Below, one piece after another: positions 6,131-47,474 of a stretch of DNA of 64,000 nucleotides. Source of the DNA: Cedecea neteri (GTDB lineage Bacteria; Pseudomonadota; Gammaproteobacteria; Enterobacterales; Enterobacteriaceae); the NCBI RefSeq assembly GCF_000758325.1, contig NZ_CP009459.1:1550001-1614000 (forward strand), read 5' to 3'. The translations under genes and the position numbers were made by a program. The notes under the pieces were generated by a model. The model saw only the letters and a program-made list of their open reading frames with translations, ran no database searches and was not told the DNA's origin. How positions within the stretch are numbered: position 1 is the stretch's first letter; every line of letters begins with the position of its first letter.

Positions 6131-6940
6131 ATGAGAAACAGTGATACCGCAACGGACAAACGTATTCCGGGTACCAGCGAAAGACGCGAACAGATTATTC
6201 AGCGTCTTCGCCAGCAGGGAAGCGTGCAGGTTAATGATTTATCTTCTTTTTTTGGTGTTTCAACCGTCACAATCCGCAACGATCTTGCGTTTCTTGAAAA
6301 GCAGGGCATTGCGGTTCGTGCCTACGGCGGGGCGTTGATCTGTGAGCCTGGTAGCGCGGTAGCAGAGCCTTCGGTGGAAGATAAAAGCTCGCTGAATACT
6401 ACACTGAAGCGCAGCATCGCTCGTGTGGCGGCAGGTTTGATCCAGTCCGGAGATAAGGTGATTCTGGACTCCGGTACCACGACATATGAAATTGCCCGGA
6501 TGATGCTGCAGCATAAAGAAGTGATCGCCATGACCAACGGCATCAACGTAGCTAACGCCCTGTTGGAAGCAGAAGGGGTAGAGGTGCTGATGACAGGCGG
6601 GCACCTGCGTCGTCAGTCACTGTCGTTTTACGGCGATAGCGCGGAACAGTCGCTGCAAAATTATCATTTCGACATGCTGTTCCTCGGGGTAGATGCTATC
6701 GATCCGGAACGCGGCGTGAGCACTCATAATGAGGATGAAGCGCGCCTCAACCGCAAAATGTGCGAGGTCGCCGAGCGGATTATCGTGGTGACCGATTCCA
6801 GCAAATTTAACCGCTCCAGCCTGCATAAAATCATCGATATCCAGCGAATTCACCGGGTGATTACCGATAAAGGCATTCCGGCAGATAGCCTGATTGCGCT
6901 GCGCAAGAGTGGCATTGATGTTGTGCTGGTGGGCGACTAG
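6131..6940 (+). CDS. agaR: AgaR, DeoR-family repressor of the aga regulon
   Basis: A 269-residue transcription repressor, the same length as in E. coli. The N-terminal winged helix contains [24 protein letters not shown] and the recognition helix [17 protein letters not shown] (about residues 40-56). The C-terminal DeoR sensor domain has [15 protein letters not shown], which binds a phosphosugar, and [24 protein letters not shown]. The ATG at 6131 has GAAAGG upstream; a TTG at 6116 is a less likely start. It is divergent from kbaZ. Its predicted operators lie at 1693, 1770, 5913, 5993 and 6091. Confidence 0.96.
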
Positions 6941-6963
6941 CGTTTTGTTTCTGGCGGGCCCGC

Positions 6964-6992
6964 GTGACAGGGGAGATGAAACCCTCTATACT
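6964..6992 (+). promoter_or_regulatory. Promoter of rnpB
   Basis: GTGACA (6964-6969) and TATACT (6987-6992) are separated by 17 bp, and a G at 7000 begins the RNase P RNA. The GC-rich stretch between -10 and start (GCGCGCC) is typical of stable-RNA promoters under growth-rate and stringent control. It begins 24 bp after the agaR stop. Confidence 0.8.
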
Positions 6993-6999
6993 GCGCGCC

Positions 7000-7376
<377 letters not shown>

Positions 7377-7808
7377 CATTCATATCGAAACGCCCCGCAC
7401 AGTGAAAGCTGGCGGGGCGTTTTGCATCCAGGGACAACGAGATGAATGACTGTCCACGACGCTCTTCATAGAAAGAAAGCGGCTTATCGGTCAGCTTCAA
7501 CTCATTCATATCGAAACGCCCCGCACAGTGAAAGCTGGCGGGGCGTTTTGCATCCAGGGACAACGAGATGAATGACTGTCCACGACGCTCTTCATAGAAA
7601 GAAAGCGGCTTATCGGTCAGCTTCAACTCATTCATATCGAAACGCCCTGCAGGTGCAAGCTTGCGGGGCGTTTTGCATTCAGAGACAACAAGATGAATGA
7701 CTGTCCACGACGCTCTTCATAGAAAGAAAGCGGCTTATCGGTCAGCTTCAACTCATTCATATAGAAACGCCCCGCAGGTGCAAGCTTGCGGGGCGTTTTG
7801 CCTTCATA

Positions 7809-8939: not shown

Positions 8940-9015
8940 GTCTCTGGCGGCAAATAAGTGCGCTTTGGCGGGTATTTGTCATAATGGTCCTCAAGTTTCA
9001 CCTCGGCGAAAAATC

Positions 9016-10113
9016 ATGATCAAATCCCTCTACATCGACAACTACCGTTCCGTGCGTAAGCTTTCCATTGATTTGGGGAGATTGAACGTGGTGTTTGGGC
9101 CCAACGGGTGCGGTAAGTCTAATATTTATAAGGCGATCCATCTGATCCACGGCGCGGGGAGTGGGCAATTGTCCCATTGGCTTTCTGATGAAGGCGGGAT
9201 CCAGAAAGCGATGTGGGCGGGCGATCGTGCCCGCGGCTACGCCAGCGCGCCGCGCAGACTGACGCTGGCGGTCGAAACCGACACGTTTGAATATGAACTA
9301 CAGGTGGGCTTCCCTGAGCCGCTGCCGTACCCGACGATGTTTAGCCTCGATCCTATCGTGAAAGAGGAGCAAATCTGGCTCAGCGGCTACCGGCGTCGTC
9401 CTTCGTCGTCGGTAATGCAGCGGCGTAATCAGACGGTTTTTCTTAATAACGTCAACGGCGAAAAGGTCACTCACGCCGCCACGCTATATGAAAATGAATC
9501 CCTCTTTGGCCAGCTTGGCGAGCCTCATTTGTACCCGGAAGTCTCCAGCGCCAGGGAGACGCTGCGTAACTGGCGTTTCTACCACGAGTTCGATATTTCC
9601 AAAGGCGCTGGCCTGAGGCTGCCTCAGGTGGGCTATCGTTCCCCGGTGCTGTCCGGCGATGGCCTGAACCTGGCCGCCGCGTTTCAGACCATCGTCGAAA
9701 TTGGCGACAGCGAGCTGATGTTTACCGTGCTGGAGGAGGCTTTCCCGGAATGTACGTTTTTCTGTGATAACAGCGGCGGGCGCTTCCAGATGATGATGAA
9801 CCGACAGGGGATAAATCGCCCGCTGGAGTCCGCGGAGTTTTCAGACGGCACGCTGCGTTTTCTCTGCCTGACGGTGGCGCTGCTCAGCCCGAGACCGCCG
9901 CAGTTCATCGCCCTAAATGAGCCTGAAAATAGCCTGCATCCGCAAATGCTTCCGGCGCTTGCCCGCCTGATTGCCGAGGCGAGCCGCTACACGCAGATTT
10001 GGCTCACCAGCCATTCCCCTGAACTGGCCACCCTTATCGAAAAACACACGGCGTTTACGCTGTACGAGCTGGGTATTGAGAAAGGGGAAACCACGATGAC
10101 TCAGCTGGCCTGA
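9016..10113 (+). CDS. AAA/SMC-like ATPase, unknown role
   Basis: A 365-residue protein of the ABC/SMC-like AAA ATPase group (COG4637 type). MIKSLYIDNYRSVRKLSIDLG is the typical beginning. Walker A is GPNGCGKSN (residues 28-36). FSDGTLRFLCL is the signature region, and PPQFIALNEPENSLHP holds Walker B, with N in place of the usual aspartate before Glu. TSHSPEL is the switch histidine motif near the end. The ATG at 9016 has only a weak ribosome site. No nuclease (TOPRIM) domain is attached, so it is not a full OLD protein. It may be co-transcribed with the small membrane protein. DNA-linked function is only a guess. Confidence 0.75.
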   Translation: MIKSLYIDNYRSVRKLSIDLGRLNVVFGPNGCGKSNIYKAIHLIHGAGSGQLSHWLSDEGGIQKAMWAGDRARGYASAPRRLTLAVETDTFEYELQVGFPEPLPYPTMFSLDPIVKEEQIWLSGYRRRPSSSVMQRRNQTVFLNNVNGEKVTHAATLYENESLFGQLGEPHLYPEVSSARETLRNWRFYHEFDISKGAGLRLPQVGYRSPVLSGDGLNLAAAFQTIVEIGDSELMFTVLEEAFPECTFFCDNSGGRFQMMMNRQGINRPLESAEFSDGTLRFLCLTVALLSPRPPQFIALNEPENSLHPQMLPALARLIAEASRYTQIWLTSHSPELATLIEKHTAFTLYELGIEKGETTMTQLA

Positions 10114-10119
10114 CGCCGT

Positions 10120-10147
10120 TTTCCCTTCCCCGCAAGGAGAAGGGAAA
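10120..10147. terminator. Hairpin between convergent genes
   Basis: Arms TTTCCCTTCCCC and GGAGAAGGGAAA enclose a GCAA tetraloop, with one mismatch. It fills the 41 bp between the ATPase gene and the convergent gene ending at 10155, so it may act in both directions. Confidence 0.6.
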
Positions 10148-10154
10148 CCTAAGG

Positions 10155-10949
10155 TTACAGGCTACCGGCGATGGTGATGTAGTCGGTATAAAGCTGCGGC
10201 GCGCCGGAGAAGGAAGCCAGTTCTCGCCATTCGTCGTACATCCTTTCGCTTTCCTGATGCTCCTTCACAAACTGCAGAGATTTCTCCGTAGAGACGTCCA
10301 GCTCCGGGTGGAAAGAGTTCAGCGAGGCCAGGCTCTCTATCTCGAGCATCACCAGATATTGCTCGATGCGGTTGCCGCCGGTGCCTTTCAGCATATGGAA
10401 TTTCCAGCCCGGATAGTCGTCAATGCGGTGGACGTTGTCGCGGATAAACGCATCGAAAGTCTGGGGTGAAACGCCCGAGCGTAGCGCGAGATTATGTAGC
10501 CCGACGACGCGTTTAATCGGTTCCTGCCCGTCGCGTAGCTGGTAGTTTGGCCCTTCCGCCAAAGAGCTATGTTCGTTTTCAGCGAGCTGCTGATAGGTGG
10601 AGAAAATCGTTGGCAGCTCGCCAAACGTCGCGAAAGTTTTCCAGGTGTTGATAAGCTCGATACCTGCCGGACGATCGCGCCAAAAAGCACGCGCCAGCTC
10701 CGTTTGTTCCCCCTGGCTATCGATATAGCGCGCGTAGCTGTCGGCATTTTCTGCTTCGTACAGCATCAGATATTGGTTCTGACGTTCGCCGCGCAGGCCT
10801 TTCAGCAAGGTCCAGCGCCAGCCAGGATAGGCCGGGATCTGCACGCCTTTGGCCTGCACAAAGGCTTCAAACGTCTCTTCGGTCACGCCCTTTTTCAGGT
10901 TAAGGCCCACATAGTGAAGGCTGAATACTGCCGGTGATGAGTGACTCAT
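10155..10949 (-). CDS. Double ferredoxin-fold (dimeric alpha-beta barrel-like) protein, copy A
   Basis: A 264-residue cytoplasmic protein without a signal peptide. It consists of two similar halves. Half one has GVTEETFEAFVQAKG then PGWRWTLLKGLRGERQNQYLML (about residues 20-70). Half two has GVSPQTFDAFIRDN then PGWKFHMLKGTGGNRIEQYLVML (about 155-205). The pattern PGW..., KG..G.R..QY...L.E resembles dimeric alpha-beta barrel (Dabb-like) folds. It is a clear paralogue of the protein at 12211-13002. The start MSHSSPAV at 10949 matches the paralogue's start. It is the last gene of the five-gene operon. I do not recognise a characterised homologue. Confidence 0.75.
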   Translation of the reverse strand: MSHSSPAVFSLHYVGLNLKKGVTEETFEAFVQAKGVQIPAYPGWRWTLLKGLRGERQNQYLMLYEAENADSYARYIDSQGEQTELARAFWRDRPAGIELINTWKTFATFGELPTIFSTYQQLAENEHSSLAEGPNYQLRDGQEPIKRVVGLHNLALRSGVSPQTFDAFIRDNVHRIDDYPGWKFHMLKGTGGNRIEQYLVMLEIESLASLNSFHPELDVSTEKSLQFVKEHQESERMYDEWRELASFSGAPQLYTDYITIAGSL

Positions 10950-10965
10950 ACAAACTCCTGTTTCA

Positions 10966-12129
10966 TTAACGCTGGCGAGAAATAAACGGCGAACCTGAAG
11001 CCACAAAGAAAAGCAGCAACAGGGCACCACTGAAGGTCAAACTGAGCCCAATGTGATGGGCGATAAAGCCAATCAGCGCAGGCCCTGCGAGCAGGCCGCT
11101 GTAGCCAAAAAGCGTGACGGCAGGGATGGCGAAATCTGCTGAAACCCCCGGCTGGTTACCGGCGGAGGTGAAGATAATGGGAATAATGTTGGCGAGACCG
11201 GCTCCGACCAGGATAAACCCCGGCAGGGTGCCCCAATGGGTAAAGACGAGCAGGGCAATCCCGGTGCCAGCAATAGCGCAGCCGAGGAGCAGCACGAGCT
11301 TGCCGCCCAGGGCGCTGACCAGACGATCGCCGCTGAGCCGCCCAAGGGTGACGGTAATGGAATATAAGGTGTAGCCGAAGCCCGCGAGCGAAGCGCTCAT
11401 GCCGCGCTCCGAGGTCATAAATACCGCCGACCAGTCCAGCATGGCGCCTTCAAGCATAAAGACGAAAAAGCAAAGTATCGCGATGACCAACACGGGCGGA
11501 TGGCTCAGCACGCGTAGCGTCTCGCCTTTGCCGCTTGTGGCTCCATTTTGTTTGGGCAAAATGTTCCGGGCAGAGGCAGCAAGCAGCAAAGCCAGAAAAA
11601 CGGTGATGGCGCACACGGCAAGCAACGGCGTTGCCCCCAGCCACAGAAAGAAGCTGACGCTGCCCGCGCCGGCAATGCTGCCGATGCTGTAAAAGCCATG
11701 AAAACCGGACATTTTTGCCTGCTCGCTTTCCTGTTCGACCACCACTGCATGGGCGTTCATAGCGACGTCGAGCATGCCGTTGAAGGTGCCGAAGAGCAGC
11801 AAAGCCAACGCCATGGCTTCGCGCTGGTCAAACAGCATCAGCAGCGGTAAATCCGCGGCAAGCCCCAGCACGCTGAGGATCATCAGCCGGCGGCAGCCAA
11901 AGCGTGTAATCAGGCGGCCGGTAAATGGCATAACGAGCATTGAGCCCGCGGCGATGCAAAAGAGCAGCAGCCCTAAAGCGCCGTCGTTGATATCCAGCCG
12001 TGCTTTGGCGAAAGGAATTAGCGGGGCCCAGGACGACATGGCTAAACCGGCCATGAAAAATATGGCGCGCGTGGCGTGCTGTTCCCGTGACTGTACGTCC
12101 GCCAGGGTTGGGGTTGAGTTAATCGTCAT
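10966..12129 (-). CDS. MFS transporter (YbjJ-like)
   Basis: A 387-residue major facilitator protein with about 12 membrane spans. FMAGLAMSSWAPLIPFAKARL opens the first span. GRLITRFGCRRLM (about residues 71-83) is the conserved loop 2-3 motif, and SGFHGFYSIGSIAGAG in the middle recalls E. coli YbjJ. It lies between the two ferredoxin-fold paralogues, 16 bp before copy A and 81 bp after copy B. A position inside a biosynthetic-looking operon suggests export (or uptake) of the pathway's product. The substrate cannot be told. Confidence 0.85.
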   Translation of the reverse strand: MTINSTPTLADVQSREQHATRAIFFMAGLAMSSWAPLIPFAKARLDINDGALGLLLFCIAAGSMLVMPFTGRLITRFGCRRLMILSVLGLAADLPLLMLFDQREAMALALLLFGTFNGMLDVAMNAHAVVVEQESEQAKMSGFHGFYSIGSIAGAGSVSFFLWLGATPLLAVCAITVFLALLLAASARNILPKQNGATSGKGETLRVLSHPPVLVIAILCFFVFMLEGAMLDWSAVFMTSERGMSASLAGFGYTLYSITVTLGRLSGDRLVSALGGKLVLLLGCAIAGTGIALLVFTHWGTLPGFILVGAGLANIIPIIFTSAGNQPGVSADFAIPAVTLFGYSGLLAGPALIGFIAHHIGLSLTFSGALLLLFFVASGSPFISRQR

Positions 12130-12210
12130 AGTAATTTCGTGACTCAGTGTGTGGATTCACTCGCGTGAATGCGTCGTGCCCGGTCCTTCGGGCACGCGCG
12201 GCGGTAAGCG

Positions 12211-13002
12211 TTAATTAAGGCTTTCTGCTACCGAGAGGTAATCGGTATAGATTTGCGGCGACCCGGAAAACGAGGCGAGTTTTTTCCATTCCTCGTACAT
12301 TTGTTTGGTATCGCGGTGCGCCTGGGCGAATTTGGCTGCTTCGTCGGTGGCGATATCCGGCTCGGGGTAAAAGACATCCAGCGCCTCCAGGCTGGCGATC
12401 TCCATCAGCACCACATACTGATCGAGCCGGTTACCGCGCTCCCCTTTTAACAGCCGGAACTTCCAGTCCGGATAATCTTCAATCCGGTGATGGTTACCCT
12501 CGATAAAGCTTTCAAACTGTTCGGCACTGACGTTAGGCCGCAGCGCGAGGTTGTGAATACCAATCACCCGAGCAACCGGGGGCTGCTGCTGGTAGCGGGG
12601 GCCCGGCTTGACGGTACTTTTCTGGTTTTCTGCCAGCAGGCGATAATCGGTGAACAGCGTTGGCAGTTCGCTGAACGTACCGTAGCGGCGCCATTCGGCC
12701 AGCAGCGCCTGTGCTTCGGGATGCTGCCGCCAGAACTCACGAGCTTCTTCGGTCTGGTTGCCGTCTGCGGCCATGTAGCGATCGCGCATTGCCGCATTTT
12801 CAATTTCAAACAGCATCAAATATTGCCCGGCACGTTCGCCGCGTAGGCCGCGAAGCAGCGTCCAGCGCCAGCCCGGATAGCAGGGAATATGCACGCCTTT
12901 GTTCTGCACAAAGGTTTCAAACGCCTGCTGGGTAATGCCCGCTTCGGTATCGATGGCGATGTAAAACAGGCTGAAAACCGGCGTGGTTGAAGAGTGGCTC
13001 AT
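12211..13002 (-). CDS. Double ferredoxin-fold (dimeric alpha-beta barrel-like) protein, copy B
   Basis: A 263-residue paralogue of the protein at 10155-10949, similar over its whole length, including the start MSHSS and the end (SGSPQIYTDYLSVAESLN here, SGAPQLYTDYITIAGSL there). It too has two repeats, with PGWRWTLLRGLRGERAGQYLML and PDWKFRLLKGERGNRLDQYVVL. It starts 3 bp after the radical SAM gene, so translation is probably coupled. Copies A and B may form a heterodimer or act on successive intermediates. That is inference, and no function is known to me. Confidence 0.75.
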   Translation of the reverse strand: MSHSSTTPVFSLFYIAIDTEAGITQQAFETFVQNKGVHIPCYPGWRWTLLRGLRGERAGQYLMLFEIENAAMRDRYMAADGNQTEEAREFWRQHPEAQALLAEWRRYGTFSELPTLFTDYRLLAENQKSTVKPGPRYQQQPPVARVIGIHNLALRPNVSAEQFESFIEGNHHRIEDYPDWKFRLLKGERGNRLDQYVVLMEIASLEALDVFYPEPDIATDEAAKFAQAHRDTKQMYEEWKKLASFSGSPQIYTDYLSVAESLN

Positions 13003-13005
13003 GGG

Positions 13006-14454
13006 TTACTCCTGCTCTGCGTCGGCTGAGATGAACTGGGTGTTAATGATGGCTTCAACCAGCGTGACGCCGATGGGCGTCAGCGTGACTACGCCGTGCT
13101 CAATTACCACCAGTTCTTTTGCCTGCAGCTTTTCCAGCGTCGGTTTGATGATGCGGTTTTCAAAAAAGCTGTTGCCGTTGAAGCGTGTCGCGAACACGGC
13201 GTCGTCCACCGGAATGAGCGTGGAGAGGGCCATTTTGAAGGCGTTAACTTCGCGCTGTTCCGGTGAAATACCGTGGCTTTCTTCGATAGGTAGGCGGCCT
13301 TCGTCGAGGAACTGCTTGTATTGCTTATAGCCGGTGATGTTGATGGCTTCGGCGCGGGTGCACTTCGAACTGCCACCCAGGCCGATAGCAACTTCGGGAT
13401 ACTGCTTGTCGAGATCGGTGATCAGTCCTTTCCACTTTTCAGCTTCCAGGTGGTTCTGGTGGAAATACATCGTGGGGTGTTCGCGATAGCCCTCGGTGAG
13501 GTATTTCTCGACCAGCTCGCGCATTTGATATTGCTTGCCCAGCCCCGGGAACGTCATGTTGTTCATGTTGATCAGCCCTTTTTTCTGCCACAGGCTTTCA
13601 CGCTCGCCGGAAACGCCGGTGCGCGTTTTCATGAACTCTTCCATGTGCAGCTTGGTACAGACGACGTGGGAGAGATCCAGCTCCAGGGTGCGCTCCATGT
13701 CGTACTTCACGTCATCCACGGTTTGGCCCAGCATGCCGTAGATGAGATCGACGCTGACCCACTCGATGCCCTGTTCCCGGGCGCTGCGGATGGTTTCTTC
13801 ACACTCGTCGGCGGTGTGCTGGCGACCACAGGCGGCAATAATGGCGTCGTTGAAGGATTGGGTGCCGAAACTGATTTTGCTGAAGCCCAGCTCTTTCAGA
13901 ATGCCGATGTATTCGCGGTTTAATGTCCCTGGTTCGCCTTCAAAGCGCAGCGTTGCCGCCGAGAAATTAAAATGCGTGTAATAGAAGTCCATCAGCCGAC
14001 GCAGCTCCGGCTCCGGGAGCAGGGAAGGCGTGCCGCCAAAGATATTGAATTCGCCAATTTCCGCTTTTGACAGACTCGGCACTTTTTCCAGCCACATCTT
14101 CGCTTCTTTAATGTTGTAGTCCACCAGATCCCGGAAGACGCCTTCCGCCGAAGGCGATTTTGGATTGAGGATCACCGTTGGATACTGGCAGAAGTGGCAG
14201 CGGTAACGGCAGGTGGGAATATAGGCCCACAGATGGATCTGTTTCGCAGCCCGAATATCGTGCTCCATATCGGCAAAAAACGATTCCAGCGGGTAGTGCT
14301 CAATGTCACCGGGAAAAACATGGCAGCCAAAAGGATCTTTATGGACGTAGTCCAGAAAAGCCTCGTTCTCCGGCTGGAGGAGGAAGTCGTAAACTGCCGG
14401 AACCGGATAAGCCGGGTCGAGATCTTTTAAGGACGCGAGAGCTTCGGTATTCAT
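13006..14454 (-). CDS. HemN-like radical SAM protein
   Basis: A 482-residue radical SAM enzyme. TCRYRCHFC holds the CX3CX2C cluster ligands Cys82, Cys86 and Cys89. The motif NIFGGTPSLL (near 137-146), FEGEPGTLN, FGTQSFN and DLIYGMLGQT follow the HemN order, and the C-terminus (about 400-475) resembles the HemN C-terminal domain. The fourth cysteine of true HemN (two residues after the third) is absent; here the sequence is CQY. So it is probably not the coproporphyrinogen oxidase but one of the HemN-like enzymes (heme-opening HutW/ChuW type, methyltransferases, cyclopropanases). It overlaps the upstream glycosyltransferase gene at TGATG. Confidence 0.85.
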   Translation of the reverse strand: MNTEALASLKDLDPAYPVPAVYDFLLQPENEAFLDYVHKDPFGCHVFPGDIEHYPLESFFADMEHDIRAAKQIHLWAYIPTCRYRCHFCQYPTVILNPKSPSAEGVFRDLVDYNIKEAKMWLEKVPSLSKAEIGEFNIFGGTPSLLPEPELRRLMDFYYTHFNFSAATLRFEGEPGTLNREYIGILKELGFSKISFGTQSFNDAIIAACGRQHTADECEETIRSAREQGIEWVSVDLIYGMLGQTVDDVKYDMERTLELDLSHVVCTKLHMEEFMKTRTGVSGERESLWQKKGLINMNNMTFPGLGKQYQMRELVEKYLTEGYREHPTMYFHQNHLEAEKWKGLITDLDKQYPEVAIGLGGSSKCTRAEAINITGYKQYKQFLDEGRLPIEESHGISPEQREVNAFKMALSTLIPVDDAVFATRFNGNSFFENRIIKPTLEKLQAKELVVIEHGVVTLTPIGVTLVEAIINTQFISADAEQE

Positions 14455-17120
14455 CAGAAAACACCTCCGTTGGCAAAGTAGTTGTGGGCTTCACCGGACT
14501 CGCGATCTTCACAGAAGTACCAGACAAAGCGTTCGAAATCTTTTTCCGCGACGCTGTCAAAGCAGGCCGGAAGCGGTGGCGCAAAACCAATGTCCTCCCC
14601 GACGGCGTTGCGTAGCGCGGTGAATATCTCGTGGCGGAACTCGAAATAGAGCCGGTAGGCCGGCGTTTTGTAGCTATGGATTGGCTTGAAGTCGATGATG
14701 CTCATTTCACGCTTAATAGCGTGAATACGCTGATAAAGCCGCTCTGCAACCTGCGGGGAGAAAAAGGCTCGCACCCGCTCGTTCTCCAGCAAAATGTGCG
14801 GATTCAGCAGGGCCGGAAGCACGATGTTTTTCGGGATGTAGTCCTTGATGGAGTACTCCCAGCCCTGCCTGGCCTGTTCCTCAGTGAGGTCAATCAGCGT
14901 GTTTTTTTGGATTGAGACGTCCGGGCGCACGTCTTTCATGATGATGATGCCGTCGCTGCCGTAGGCGATGCCGTTGATCACATCGTCAATAATGGTGTCC
15001 ACGCGGCGGCTGTTGATCTCCACAAAAGATTCTTTGGCGTAAACCGGTTTGCCGCCCCAGGCGATGATCTTGATGCCGAAATCCCAGTCGTCGGAAAGGT
15101 GTTCCACGAAGCGGCCTTTTTCCAACTGGTAGAAGATCTCGATGCCGCCAATTTTTTCGTACAGACCGCGCTCCACGGCGAAGCCTTTGCCATCCGGGAA
15201 GCCGCCAAACAGCGAGAACGACACGTCGCGGCAGCGCAGGGTTTTTTGAATTTCACGGAAGAGGTTGGGGCGCTGCTGGAATGCTTCTCGGTCGTAGTAG
15301 TAATTGCAGGTGCCGAGATCGCCGTCGTCGGCAATCATTTTTTCTATCAGGGTATGCAGCCAGTAAGGATCCACGGTGCAGTCGGCATCGGCTGAGACAA
15401 TATAGTGTTTATTGCTTTTGCCCAGCCGGGCATCACGCGCCCTTGAGCGCAGGGCGGCGTAATCCATACCGCATTTACGGGCCGATGAGACACCCTGAAT
15501 CTTCTCCTGAATAATGTGCACATCCATCGCCGGATGTTTTTCTTTGAAGAGGTTTATCTTTGCCACGGAATCATCGCGGGAGTTGTTATCCACGATGATC
15601 ACTTCATAAGCGTCATGGGTAACCAATCGGCCATGCGTTTGTTGGTCAAAGAGTGAGGCTAGAACTTCATCAATTCGGTCGCTTTCATTGTAAACAGGCA
15701 GCACTACCGAGACGAAAATGTTATCGCGCATATCTACTCCTGGGGCGGTGATGTTCAGAATGTCCATCACGTTGTTGGAAAGGATGTTTTTGCCGATGGC
15801 GAAGTTCTTAGCGGCTATACGAGCCATTTCAGGTTTATTGGTCAGCAGCAAAAAGACTTCGTTGATAAAGGCTTCGTCAGGCAGGCCGTCCTGCCCGTCT
15901 GAGATAGGCATCACCGGAGCTTCAAAGCCGTGCTGGCCGTAGACTTCCGGGTAGTATTCATAGCGGGTGGTGATGTAGCAGCGCTGGCTGCTGATTGCTT
16001 CTCCAATGGGATTGCCGTAGCTGTCGTAGTCCCATGAAGTCAGGAACGACACCAGGTCGCAGGAATGGTAGAGATCCTCGATGGTGATTTTTCCCAGACT
16101 CATGGGCATGAAGTTGTGATGCAGCGGGCCAAGAAACTTCACGTAGGAAGTGATGTCCAGCTCCTGCGCCAGCTGCTCAAGCTCGCCTGCATGCGTGGCG
16201 TGTTCACGAGGATCACCGGCGATCAAAAGCCAGACGGTTTTATCGATATTGTGCTTTCTGAACAGGTGGTTAAGGCGTTGAACTAAGAGTACGTCGCGAT
16301 CCAGGCGCTTCTGCGGGATGATGCGCGTCGTTCGGGCAATGACTATGTCATCGGCGGGAATATTCAGGGATGCCCGGATGTTTTTCAGCGCCTGTTGCCC
16401 GGTAAAGCTGTAGGTATTTTTCACTACGTGAATATCGACTTCCCGGTGGCACCAGTGTTCCAGCTTTTCTTTGAGATCGTTATTCAGCGTAACGTAGCTA
16501 ATAAAAGGGGATTTGGCAGGTTTAATGGCATGCTTATACGGCGGTAAACCATACTTCATAATATTTTTCTCGCTGTTCCACATGAGGTCGTGATCGCGCC
16601 AGATAACAAAATTCCCTAACTGGTGGCGATGGCCGTATTGTTCGATAGCGAGATAAAGAGCGCGGGTGTAAATGATATTCTCTGGCAGCGTGCCGTTTTC
16701 GACAATGACGGTGCAAATTCGAAGTTGTTCCCATTGAAGTAAAATTCTTTCGGCCAGACTTTGGGCGGAATATTCAACGGCGCGGATTATTTCTGATTTT
16801 TCTTCAAATGAAACAGAAAGTCTTTCACTGATAAGCACCGCATGTGCTTTTTCAATAAACTCCGGGGAATAATGAGGTACAGAGGTAATCTCGCTAATGC
16901 GCGTTAAGGTAAAGGCATCGCGATAAATTTCGGGCTCATGATCGTAAGGCTTATTAAAATTGCCTTTGTCAACCTTAATGTCATACCCAAGATCGAGATA
17001 AGAGTTGATGCCTTTTTGTTTAAGGCTTTGTGATACTTTTAATGCTTCTACCGTAATACCTGAGACGGCAACAGCATCAAAAGAGATAAACATGGCATAT
17101 CTTTGACCATAAACGTCCAT
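14454..17120 (-). CDS. Two-domain glycosyltransferase (GT4-like plus GT2)
   Basis: An 888-residue protein without membrane spans. The first half (about 1-455) resembles GT-B glycosyltransferases of family 4: VAVSGITVEALKVSQSLKQ near the start, RTTRIIPQKRLDRD for nucleotide-sugar binding, VWLLIAGDPR, and DSYGNPIGEAISSQ. The second half is a GT-A family 2 domain starting FVSVVLPVYNESDRIDEVLA near residue 467, with VIIVDNNSRDDS, the metal-binding VSADADC and SDDWDFGIKI. It would transfer two sugars in turn or make a repeated disaccharide. It is first in the operon, and its TGA overlaps the radical SAM ATG. A long structured AT-rich leader precedes it. The acceptor is unknown. Confidence 0.85.
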   Translation of the reverse strand: MDVYGQRYAMFISFDAVAVSGITVEALKVSQSLKQKGINSYLDLGYDIKVDKGNFNKPYDHEPEIYRDAFTLTRISEITSVPHYSPEFIEKAHAVLISERLSVSFEEKSEIIRAVEYSAQSLAERILLQWEQLRICTVIVENGTLPENIIYTRALYLAIEQYGHRHQLGNFVIWRDHDLMWNSEKNIMKYGLPPYKHAIKPAKSPFISYVTLNNDLKEKLEHWCHREVDIHVVKNTYSFTGQQALKNIRASLNIPADDIVIARTTRIIPQKRLDRDVLLVQRLNHLFRKHNIDKTVWLLIAGDPREHATHAGELEQLAQELDITSYVKFLGPLHHNFMPMSLGKITIEDLYHSCDLVSFLTSWDYDSYGNPIGEAISSQRCYITTRYEYYPEVYGQHGFEAPVMPISDGQDGLPDEAFINEVFLLLTNKPEMARIAAKNFAIGKNILSNNVMDILNITAPGVDMRDNIFVSVVLPVYNESDRIDEVLASLFDQQTHGRLVTHDAYEVIIVDNNSRDDSVAKINLFKEKHPAMDVHIIQEKIQGVSSARKCGMDYAALRSRARDARLGKSNKHYIVSADADCTVDPYWLHTLIEKMIADDGDLGTCNYYYDREAFQQRPNLFREIQKTLRCRDVSFSLFGGFPDGKGFAVERGLYEKIGGIEIFYQLEKGRFVEHLSDDWDFGIKIIAWGGKPVYAKESFVEINSRRVDTIIDDVINGIAYGSDGIIIMKDVRPDVSIQKNTLIDLTEEQARQGWEYSIKDYIPKNIVLPALLNPHILLENERVRAFFSPQVAERLYQRIHAIKREMSIIDFKPIHSYKTPAYRLYFEFRHEIFTALRNAVGEDIGFAPPLPACFDSVAEKDFERFVWYFCEDRESGEAHNYFANGGVF

Positions 17121-17521
17121 GGCGACTACCCCTTTGAAGCGAAACTGCTACGCTTATTTGTTGTAAGCAATTGATACATCCCGAATGGCTGCGTTTTCGA
17201 TGACGCCCGAAGCCATTCAGAACCGGCAAAATCAGAAAACATCGCCAGCAGCGGTACCTGCGCTGGCTTTCAAGTGCTGTATGTATCAAAGTGCCTGCAA
17301 GAATAAGCTTGCGGGATAGTTAAACGTTTTGGCGTTTATCAGTATTATATTTTTAGGCCGAGAGAGTTCGCCGGTTTTCTTTAATTTTCCGGTTCACTTC
17401 ATCTGGCATTTTTCTGATTTTGTAATTATCAGTTTTTGATTTTTTTACTGGTGTTGGATTCCGAGAAAAGTTGTTCAAAAGACCACGCAATCTTAAACAT
17501 CTCTATTTTTTACCGTAAAGC

Positions 17522-17533
17522 GGGAACGTTCCA
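17522..17533. promoter_or_regulatory. GGGAACGTTCCA palindrome, possible weak RcsAB-like box
   Basis: GGAACGTTCC is a perfect 10-bp palindrome. It resembles the stronger copy at 17675 and partly fits the known RcsAB box (TRVGAAWAWTSYGR). Function is inferred only. Confidence 0.35.
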
Positions 17534-17674
17534 GTTGGTGAGCGTTATCACACATTCTGTTTTTGTTTTTAAAGCTGAATTTTTAATAACCGGACGAACA
17601 TTAATATACATTTCAGGCCTTTTAAATAATGAATTACGTAAACGTTTAGATACTGATTTTAAAAAATGACAAAA

Positions 17675-17692
17675 ATTGGGAATGTTCCCAAT
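17675..17692. promoter_or_regulatory. ATTGGGAA/TTCCCAAT palindrome, RcsAB-box-like
   Basis: Two perfect 8-bp arms around TG. The central 14 bases, TGGGAATGTTCCCA, agree with the RcsAB consensus TRVGAAWAWTSYGR at 12 of 14 positions. The same GGGAATGTTCCC recurs at 46610, upstream of bsmA. Control of a glycosyltransferase operon by the Rcs envelope-stress relay would make sense, but binding is not shown. Confidence 0.45.
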
Positions 17693-18220
17693 GTGGTGCG
17701 AATTTGCTGCTTCTGTGTCTACTGTTCCGACAGCCACAAGGCTGACATTTGCGAAATATAAAAGGCAATTTACCGCTTTACCCTAATAAAAGAGCGCTCT
17801 CAGATATACCGAACCCTTAACTTTGGTATGGGAAGAGTAAAACTTACACCCGGTATTCGTAACTCATTATAAATATTAGATTATTATTTAAATCATGATA
17901 AATAGTAAGGGCTAGAGGAAACTCAGCCACTAAATATTTACTTACTATATGAGGCTTTTACAGAATTGGAATCGATAGTCTACGCGCGCGCTGATTGAAA
18001 CATTGAATAAAAATTTATCGAAATATTTGAATGAGTTAGCGATGACGCGCATCCTGTGGATGGCCATTAACCAAAGCAAAAAAATGCCAAAGCTAACGAG
18101 AATATATCGAGGCCGCTATTCGTAGGTATGGCAATATTTCACCGTATACAGCGTGTGGTCAGGATGAGGTGTTTTCTACAGAATGCGTTCTGTGAATAAA
18201 TACCAGGGAAGGAAATGAGC

Positions 18221-18245
18221 AGCCTCTTTCAGAGCGAAAGAGGCT
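18221..18245 (-). terminator. Hairpin after yhaK
   Basis: Perfect 10-bp arms AGCCTCTTTC and GAAAGAGGCT around AGAGC, 10 bp beyond the yhaK stop. The T run on the minus strand is weak (CTCATTTCC). Confidence 0.6.
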
Positions 18246-18254
18246 GGCTGTAAG

Positions 18255-18956
18255 CTAGACAGGTAAGTCGATCAGCAGGCCACGCAGCGGCGTATCGGCG
18301 ACGAGGGTGATATTCGCCTCATCACGAATAAACGCGCCATCGCCGCAGGTAAGTGCTTCCTTCTCTTCTGCTGGCGTTACCGCATGCACCGTGCCGTGAA
18401 TCGACTGCAGATAGGCTCGTGGGCCATGAAGCTGGAAGCTTAGCTGCTCGCCCTTTTGCATCTCAATATGGTGGATCCACACCTGCTGGCGGAGCTGCAG
18501 GCTGTGATTGCTGCCGTCCGGCGAGGCAATCAGCTGATGTGATGCTCCCGCGAACGGGATCTTTTGTACCAGCGGATTTTCACGGTCCGGGCAGGCATCC
18601 AGCCACAGCTGCATGCGCGTCAGCGATTTCTCTTTGCTGAGGTTGTGCTCGCTATAGCTGATCCCCGGCTGGGTGGAAAGCAGCAGGACTTCGCCGGCGC
18701 TGGCCTGGATATGGTTGCCTTCGCTGTCGCGGTATTCCGCTTCCCCTTCCAGAATCAGGTTGAGGATGTCTACTTTCGGGTAACCGCGTGGTTGAAACGA
18801 GGCTCCAGGGGCCAGAACTTCCTGGTTGAGCACGCGCAGAGAGGCGTAGCCCAGCAGTTTCGGGTCGAAGTAGTGTCCAAAAGAAAAGGTGTAGCGAGCC
18901 TGCAGCCATCCGTAGTCAGCTTTACCACACTGTTTGGCTGTTCTTGTCGTAATCAT
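18255..18956 (-). CDS. yhaK: Pirin-like cupin YhaK
   Basis: A 233-residue bicupin, very similar to E. coli YhaK over its whole length (MITTRTAKQCGKADYGWLQA at the start, HYFDPKLLGYASLRVLNQEV near 27-46). Pirin family proteins bind a metal through cupin histidines; YhaK has been described as a cytoplasmic redox marker without a known reaction. It is divergent from the LysR gene yhaJ, with 105 bp between, as in E. coli. Its control by YhaJ is plausible from this arrangement. Confidence 0.95.
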   Translation of the reverse strand: MITTRTAKQCGKADYGWLQARYTFSFGHYFDPKLLGYASLRVLNQEVLAPGASFQPRGYPKVDILNLILEGEAEYRDSEGNHIQASAGEVLLLSTQPGISYSEHNLSKEKSLTRMQLWLDACPDRENPLVQKIPFAGASHQLIASPDGSNHSLQLRQQVWIHHIEMQKGEQLSFQLHGPRAYLQSIHGTVHAVTPAEEKEALTCGDGAFIRDEANITLVADTPLRGLLIDLPV

Positions 18957-19061
18957 AATTCTTGACCTCTCTTTACACTAAACCCATGTTAAGGGTCTGG
19001 ACGCTGCATTGTTAGCCAGTTAATCTGCTCGGTATGTTCAAATTTCCTGAATGAGAACGAA

Positions 19062-26419: not shown

Positions 26420-26495
<76 letters not shown>

Positions 26496-26532
26496 AAATT
26501 TGATTTGGCGTTTACAGCCATGCACCACCCAA

Positions 26533-26608
<76 letters not shown>

Positions 26609-26644
26609 AAATTTGATTGGCTTTTACAGCCACGCACCACCCAA

Positions 26645-26720
<76 letters not shown>

Positions 26721-46609: not shown

Positions 46610-46621
46610 GGGAATGTTCCC
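46610..46621. promoter_or_regulatory. GGGAATGTTCCC, RcsAB-box-like, upstream of bsmA
   Basis: The same 12 bases occur upstream of the glycosyltransferase operon at 17678-17689. They lie 31 bp before the bsmA start codon. Rcs control is a guess from the consensus. Confidence 0.4.
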
Positions 46622-46745: not shown

Positions 46746-47474
46746 ATGATCGAAATTTATAATGAGCGATTCGCCGATGTTGAAGTGTTGCATGCGGTAC
46801 CTGCCGGAATGGAGCAATCCCCGCTGCCGACGGTGATTTTCTATCACGGGTTCACCTCTTCAAAGCTGGTATATAGCTATTTCGCTGTGGCGCTTGCGCA
46901 GCAGGGATTTCGTGTTGTCATGCCGGATGCGCTCGATCATGGCGCTCGCTACAGCGGTGACGCTCATGCTCGCCTGCAGCAGTTCTGGCCAATCTTAAAA
47001 AAAAGCATTGATGAATTCCCGGCTCTCTATCAGGCATTAATTAACTCCGGCGGTGTTGCCGAGGGCAGACTTGCCGTGGGAGGGGCTTCTATGGGAGGCA
47101 TGACGGCACTGGGGATTATGGCGCGGCATCCTGAAGTACGCTGCGTCGCCAGCCTGATGGGATCGGGCTATTTTACAACACTCGCACAGACGCTGTTTCC
47201 ACCTTCGGCGGAGGTGCGTGAAGAGGTTATCGTTGGCCTGAAGGATTACGAGGTTAGCGAGAAGCTTGAAGCGCTAAGCAACAGGCCGCTGCTGCTCTGG
47301 CATGGTGAAGAAGATGATGTGGTGCCCGCCGTTGAAACGTTCAGATTGCAGCAGGCTCTGGGGGCTAACAAGCGGGATCAAAACCTGACTTGTGTATGGG
47401 AAGCGGGCGTCAAACATCGTATTACGCCCGAGGCGTTAGAGGCCACAAGCCAGTTTTTTGCTCGATACTTGTAA
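46746..47474 (+). CDS. yjfP: Esterase YjfP (alpha/beta hydrolase)
   Basis: A 242-residue serine hydrolase. TVIFYHGFTSSKLVYSY is the oxyanion-hole region, and VGGASMGGMTALG holds the nucleophile serine in G-A-S-M-G (near residue 117). HGEEDDVVPAVETFRL gives the catalytic Asp region, and VKHRITPEALEATSQF the catalytic His. It matches E. coli YjfP, an esterase with broad substrates and a proposed role in deacetylating sugars before export. It has GGAGGAG before the ATG. Confidence 0.95.
   Translation: MIEIYNERFADVEVLHAVPAGMEQSPLPTVIFYHGFTSSKLVYSYFAVALAQQGFRVVMPDALDHGARYSGDAHARLQQFWPILKKSIDEFPALYQALINSGGVAEGRLAVGGASMGGMTALGIMARHPEVRCVASLMGSGYFTTLAQTLFPPSAEVREEVIVGLKDYEVSEKLEALSNRPLLLWHGEEDDVVPAVETFRLQQALGANKRDQNLTCVWEAGVKHRITPEALEATSQFFARYL

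Follow-up and report, generated by a model that had tools for sequence, protein, structure and literature searches.

A five-gene glycosyltransferase and radical SAM operon of Cedecea neteri, its patchy spread and its possible tie to trehalose

Several described systems resemble parts of the locus presented here. The treBC operon is controlled by TreR and CRP, and we take TreR to bind the palindrome GGGAACGTTCCC in Escherichia coli. GMC-type oxidases paired with C-6' aminotransferases build aminoglycosides, and the rhizopine (mos) genes belong to a pathway for a nodule compound. The class C (HemN-like) radical S-adenosylmethionine (SAM) methyltransferases include NocN, and the dimeric alpha/beta-barrel (ABM-like) proteins include 2pgc, sulfur oxygenase reductase, PenE and anthrone-oxidase-like proteins. 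We analysed a five-gene operon in a 64,000-nucleotide stretch (the window) of the Cedecea neteri genome, which is a single contig of 4.66 Mb. The genes encode a glycosyltransferase (GT), a radical SAM protein (RSAM), two ferredoxin-fold proteins (FDA and FDB) and a transporter of the major facilitator superfamily (MFS). The operon is conserved and under purifying selection; we rate as evenly balanced the proposal that it forms a trehalose-tied pathway for the synthesis and export of a small sugar metabolite, glycosylated, modified by radical SAM chemistry and perhaps derived from trehalose.

The minus strand carries all five genes. GT (14454-17120, 888 aa) combines a GT4-type with a GT2 glycosyltransferase and has no predicted membrane segment; RSAM (13006-14454, 482 aa) is a HemN-fold protein with a CX3CX2C motif; FDA (12211-13002, 263 aa) is a tandem dimeric alpha/beta-barrel protein; the MFS transporter (10966-12129, 387 aa) has ~10 hydrophobic segments by count; and FDB (10155-10949, 264 aa from its ATG) is a paralogue of FDA, for which the list of open reading frames (ORFs) has a longer GTG-start form. 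GT and RSAM overlap at TGATG, and the gaps that follow are of 3 bp (RSAM/FDA), 81 bp (FDA/MFS) and 16 bp (MFS/FDB). The initial annotation of this DNA had described five co-directional genes with these junctions, and coordinates and junctions were confirmed. Pfam matches were obtained for GT2, Radical_SAM and MFS_1, the GT4-type match being weak and under its cut-off; FDA and FDB had no Pfam match above cut-off. The enzymes thus belong to known superfamilies, and FDA and FDB have a known fold and no Pfam family. No Rfam match reached the gathering threshold in window positions 9000-19000, and megablast against 5,426 E. coli genomes gave no match to the operon.

Scanning a species-genome collection for RSAM identified 41 loci. 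The order GT-RSAM-FDA-MFS-FDB is found in 26 of them (Enterobacterales and Pseudomonas), some with GT split in two, so that the search for the same gene order in other genomes, suggested by the initial annotation, was answered positively. Because of this conserved order and the ratios of nonsynonymous to synonymous substitution (dN/dS) of 0.034-0.105 against loci L005, L007 and L031, the operon is real, conserved and under purifying selection, and is more than a chance arrangement. The loci closest to the window come from C. neteri and two strains named Enterobacter (RSAM 98%), and the flanking genes vary among locus groups. Among the remaining irregularities, L042 has frame breaks within the cassette, L032 has a permuted order with GT4 at the far end, and L015 and L043 are contig-end parts of one genome. 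Carriers of FDA/FDB are few: 14 among 348 Enterobacteriaceae genomes (a smaller draw had 6 among 149), 11 of 398 Pseudomonas genomes (one being a fragment) and one of 369 Gammaproteobacteria, namely the C. neteri genome itself, which was also the only one of 398 genomes across Pseudomonadota with orthologues at E 1e-50.

Parts of the operon are also found on their own. A Pantoea dispersa plasmid locus (L113, the only such locus read) contains MFS and FDB (58% and 69% identity) without GT, RSAM and FDA; an FDB match is present on eight P. dispersa plasmids, none of which has an RSAM match at 1e-60 (plasmids, not chromosomes). One enterobacterial genus (g117; genomes G117, G1501 and G1568) has a GMC oxidoreductase, a class III aminotransferase, a sulfotransferase, GT4, GT2, RSAM and FDA; the stretches read gave no match to MFS or FDB. 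The RSAM tree places 13 proteins of Sinorhizobium, Ensifer, Paraburkholderia and Cupriavidus in one clade (97/98) spanning two classes, and Rhizobium jaguaris outside it. Based on these comparisons of sequence, the operon appears to be a mobile, horizontally spread cassette of separable modules with a patchy distribution. The initial annotation had named scattered genes as grounds for abandoning its reading: the gene order is conserved, yet parts are also found apart, so the five genes are not one fixed unit. Two loci look like decaying cassettes: L022 of Pseudomonas fragi F1801, which keeps GT, RSAM and FDA with a truncated MFS and no FDB, and L143 of genome G673, with just a fragment of FDB. 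In genome G1604 (L139 5899-9140), GT4 is broken, RSAM is split by two transposase-like ORFs and FDA is present.

Concerning the neighbouring genes, trehalose genes adjoin the cassette in five contexts. In Pseudochrobactrum (L060), GT4 starts 15 bp after a group made up of sugar ATP-binding cassette (ABC) genes and the genes of a ThuA-domain and a Gfo/Idh/MocA protein; from their order we take these to be thuEFGKAB-like. In Duffyella (L114), treR, treB and treC lie 148 bp before GT4. Six Pseudomonas loci (L020, L021, L023, L026, L041 and L042), which may equal one or two contexts, give tblastn matches to treB and treC; L020 was the one scanned, and there treB, treC and phosphotransferase system (PTS) enzyme I score above NCBIfam cut-offs. 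In g117, an OtsA-like gene lies 216 bp before the GMC gene, with an OtsB-like gene, identified by eye, ahead of it; the OtsA piece, cut at its start, scored under the NCBIfam cut-offs. L139 has a divergent treB above its cut-off. The chance of finding at least five trehalose contexts among ~23 is 1e-7 to 8e-5, a rough value with contexts delimited by eye and assumed rates of 0.5-2% each.

The region upstream of the window operon contains two 11/12 matches to GGGAACGTTCCC (17522-17533 and 17678-17689), and a TGTGA-N6-TCACC site, which we label CRP-like, on the minus strand (17537-17552), 20 nt from the core of the former. In a 6.5 kb E. coli tre region, GGGAACGTTCCC, located in the treR-treB interval, is the sole site with at most two mismatches; the form at Duffyella treB matches at 10/12. 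The C. neteri genome has, in 324 kb, three sites with no more than one mismatch, two of them upstream of the operon, and shuffled sequence gives 0.19 TreR-like sites per 64 kb. Both boxes are unchanged in L005-L007, where their flanks are variable. The operon therefore resembles treBC in its palindrome and in CRP-like spacing (20 nt here and in Duffyella treB, 21 nt in E. coli treB), and with two 11/12 TreR-type operators upstream it would be a candidate member of the TreR regulon; it differs from treBC in having no PTS or hydrolase gene, and TreR control is predicted only. Among 28 upstream regions, the boxes are found as 11/12 in six (the window, L005-L007, and L014 and L018 of Serratia), as 10/12 in three and not at all in 19. 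A third TreR-like palindrome of 11/12 is located at window 46610-46621, upstream of an alpha/beta-hydrolase-like ORF (46746-47474). Other promoter signals were also considered: sigma-70-type promoters were rarer than in shuffles, FNR-type boxes were set aside, L013 and L038 being the only regions with matches, and NifA/RpoN control of the gamma-proteobacterial operons was rejected for want of a convincing sigma-54 site.

The dual nature of the glycosyltransferase, claimed from the start, agrees with the weak GT4-type and the GT2 matches, and the two parts are separate genes in several relatives. RSAM keeps CX3CX2C, and the fourth HemN cysteine is missing in 20 of 20 aligned relatives. Its scores stay under the curated NCBIfam cut-offs for hemN (93.2 bits, cut-off 324.95), HemW (112.5 of 205.4), HutW (90.4 of 400) and STM4012 (115.5 of 380). 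These scores and the fourth cysteine rule out HemN, HemW and HutW; the C. neteri genome has three other HemN-type proteins, by eye HemN, HemW and a HutW-like one, so the initial view that RSAM is not a plain coproporphyrinogen oxidase holds. As the fourth cysteine is also absent from the genome's HemW and HutW-like proteins, its absence speaks against HemN and indicates nothing more specific. By profile, the nearest solved relatives are NocN (E 6.5e-26) and then HemN (E 1e-22); the structural model of moderate confidence (predicted local distance difference test score, pLDDT, 71) matches HemN with Z 27.6 over 397 residues. With a HemN-type fold in this model and CX3CX2C, RSAM is a putative member of the class C radical SAM methyltransferases, of which NocN is its best solved relative; it differs from them in lacking a thiopeptide or other known class C context, and methyl transfer is only putative.

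FDA and FDB share 54% identity, and both contain an internal duplication, with halves 31-32% identical. The AlphaFold2 model of FDA (pLDDT 91) consists of tandem ferredoxin-like (dimeric alpha/beta-barrel) domains; hence the pair of paralogous ferredoxin-fold proteins initially described is confirmed as to paralogy, and as to fold for the FDA model. The fold neighbours of FDA are 2pgc (Z 15.2 over 197 residues), sulfur oxygenase reductase, an anthrone-oxidase-like protein, PenE, HmoB and coproheme decarboxylase. FDA is like the ABM-like proteins in its tandem ferredoxin-like fold; it differs from them in sequence (10-16% identity in the top rows) and in having no Pfam family at cut-off, so that the likeness is one of fold alone. 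Assignment of FDA/FDB as chlorite dismutase or coproheme decarboxylase was rejected, since no such Pfam match was found at E 0.1 and the similarity of FDA is of fold only. In L037, RSAM and FDA are merged into one ORF; a partnership of RSAM with FDA is supported by this natural fusion and by FDA staying with GT-RSAM when MFS-FDB are absent.

The aminotransferase of g117 aligns over its full length to proteins named C-6' aminotransferase (336-344 bits), the next match being Neamine transaminase NeoN (132 bits). The nearest solved relatives of its GMC protein are glucose dehydrogenase and pyranose oxidase, with 6'''-hydroxyparomomycin C oxidase further down. Likeness to the aminoglycoside 6'-oxidation/transamination pair is therefore confined to g117, where a GMC sugar-oxidase-like protein and a C-6' aminotransferase relative stand beside the cassette. 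The window operon differs in lacking both genes: no C-6' aminotransferase or sugar oxidase was found in the window by tblastn, and among the loci searched they occur only in L136-L138. No cyclitol pathway was seen, nor was one looked for.

Rhizobial loci (11 of 41) carry a short version: ten have GT and RSAM, and L045 has RSAM fragments only. GT is broken in L035, its GT2 part is broken in L038, and L034 stops 405 bp past RSAM. FDA/FDB were found in none of the 11 rhizobial genomes (MFS was not searched genome-wide) and were present in the Pseudomonas genome searched alongside. NodA is found in all 11 rhizobial carriers and in neither of two Pseudomonas carriers. Among 144 Paraburkholderia genomes, RSAM at 1e-100 is present in eight (one broken) and NodA in 27 (one fragment); all eight RSAM carriers are among the 27 (hypergeometric 6e-7, kinship not corrected). 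In these eight, RSAM lies ~14-15 kb from nodA in four, ~320 kb in one and on a separate contig in three. The eight carriers all have a 198-residue NodA frame, and RSAM is absent from the ten genomes whose frame has 213 residues; this split may reflect whether the host plants are mimosoid or papilionoid.

The pair of Paraburkholderia phymatum (BPHY_RS38020/RS38025, locus L057; 74% and 68% identity) corresponds to Bphy_7706/7707 in the available text of PMC8305402, which gives log2 changes in nodules of the nifA mutant as -4.07 and -4.98 for the pair and -4.88 for nifH; treS falls in that mutant as well, and trehalose itself is unchanged. Bphy_7707 is given as -3.6 in rpoN-mutant nodules in the corresponding part of PMC5979394. 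As far as these published data go, GT and RSAM of P. phymatum are NifA-dependent in nodules, about as much as nifH. In the literature search the two tags were named only by these two papers, in tables or in passing in the text accessible. Using the sigma-54 consensus printed in the available part of PMC3538637, we found an upstream element and an 11/12 site in Sinorhizobium terangae (L027), an 11/12 site in S. garamanticum (L061), 10/12 sites in L029, L030 and L044, and none clear in L057 despite the published NifA dependence. Searches for nod-box cores upstream of rhizobial GT gave short scattered matches only, and a copied nifH promoter was rejected, the upstream stretches of L030, L027 and L061 being unlike the nifH loci L070-L073. 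Symbiotic regulation of rhizopine is the subject of a reference cited in PMC3538637 (available part). The rhizopine (mos) genes are alike in being a NifA-linked route to a nodule compound in rhizobia; the rhizobial pair differs in its enzymes, glycosyltransferases and a radical SAM protein. A hemerythrin-domain gene follows GT-RSAM in L057 (10974-11534), and L025 has an ORF of equal length at the equivalent position (11981-12541).

Under the trehalose-tied pathway, trehalose would relieve TreR-type repression through the upstream boxes and the CRP-like site, as for treBC. GT4 and GT2, for which no membrane segment is predicted, would then add two sugars to a small, soluble acceptor; trehalose, its phosphate or a derivative close to these is the likeliest one. 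RSAM with FDA would carry out a radical-SAM modification of the acceptor or glycoside, and MFS would export the product. Because FDB also travels with MFS alone, FDB may protect the cell or perform the last step at export. Nodule bacteria would keep GT and RSAM, the pair being driven by NifA in P. phymatum according to the published data. Support for this pathway comes from the gene order in 26 of 41 loci with its dN/dS ratios, the five trehalose contexts, the two boxes with the CRP-like site, the g117 enzymes, the RSAM-FDA fusion and the NifA dependence, and the initial idea that a product is built, glycosylated and exported is supported. Several observations tell against a tie to trehalose. 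No trehalose gene is present in the window, and a search of 260 kb of flanking C. neteri genome yielded no treR, treB, treC or otsA (the rest was not searched); treB/treC are near only six of 41 loci, all Pseudomonas, and the rhizobial loci have no trehalose neighbours. The 11/12 boxes are confined to two lineages, in six of 28 upstream regions, and the adjacency count is post hoc. The GT4 part matched no solved structure, so it points to no trehalose-using GT.

A host-niche metabolite that contains no trehalose is possible, if rather unlikely: trehalose would then only signal that the bacterium is in an insect, fungal, plant or nodule setting, much as NifA serves as the nodule cue in rhizobia. 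Regulation is indeed lineage-specific, with TreR-like boxes in Cedecea-type bacteria and Serratia, sigma-54 sites in Sinorhizobium and NifA in P. phymatum, but adjacency to diverse trehalose systems, for both uptake and synthesis, suits a substrate better than a cue. We consider it improbable that GT, RSAM and FDA make a glycoside unrelated to trehalose and that the trehalose neighbours are a coincidence of insertion site; most loci, including the rhizobial ones, lack such a neighbour, whereas the five contexts, the window operators and the rough odds at the assumed rates favour a connection. Little credence is given to MFS as an importer with FDB as a processing enzyme, in which case the five genes would take up and remodel a host glycoside instead of secreting one. 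MFS and FDB do occur alone in L113, and uptake systems adjoin the cassette in L060, L114 and the Pseudomonas loci, but two glycosyltransferases indicate synthesis and the rhizobial pair functions without MFS nearby. Tailoring of a tetrapyrrole or polyketide, in which FDA and FDB would bind a porphyrin-like or aromatic intermediate for RSAM to act on, seems very improbable indeed. The HemN fold of RSAM, and the fold that FDA has in common with anthrone-oxidase-like proteins, PenE, HmoB and coproheme decarboxylase, would suit it; on the other side, the fourth HemN cysteine is gone and rhizobial GT and RSAM are found without FDA and FDB. The suggestion, made in the initial annotation, that the ferredoxin-fold proteins bind such an intermediate found no support: by eye, no haem or polyketide gene is prominent among the families present in at least four loci, trehalose neighbours recur, and the g117 variant has an aminosugar-type oxidase/aminotransferase pair.

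Returning to the trehalose-tied pathway, a broader form of it is doubtful: Gram-negative bacteria would have a new family of aminoglycoside-like metabolites built on trehalose. Trehalose from insects, fungi, plants or nodules would be glycosylated, radical-SAM-modified and exported, with one lineage adding C-6 amination and sulfation, rhizobia holding a NifA-controlled nodule version and P. dispersa only a resistance/uptake module. In agreement with the initial annotation, which knew of no pathway described with this set, literature searches found no paper on the five genes, most subscription papers being outside their coverage. If the trehalose-tied pathway is correct, it would be an unrecognised natural-product pathway common to host-associated bacteria and nitrogen-fixing symbionts, and a glycosyltransferase and radical SAM pair that is expressed in nodules and listed, in the accessible text of the sources, only in tables or in passing would gain a function. 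It offers trehalose as an inducer candidate, P. phymatum as a tractable organism and two Pfam-less protein families, FDA and FDB.

Elsewhere in the window, an ORF at 6937-7635 contains a 42-residue stretch repeated head to tail and resembles a repeat element, not a gene; L005 has similar letters. Three tandem tRNA-Gly (GCC) genes are located at 26420-26720.

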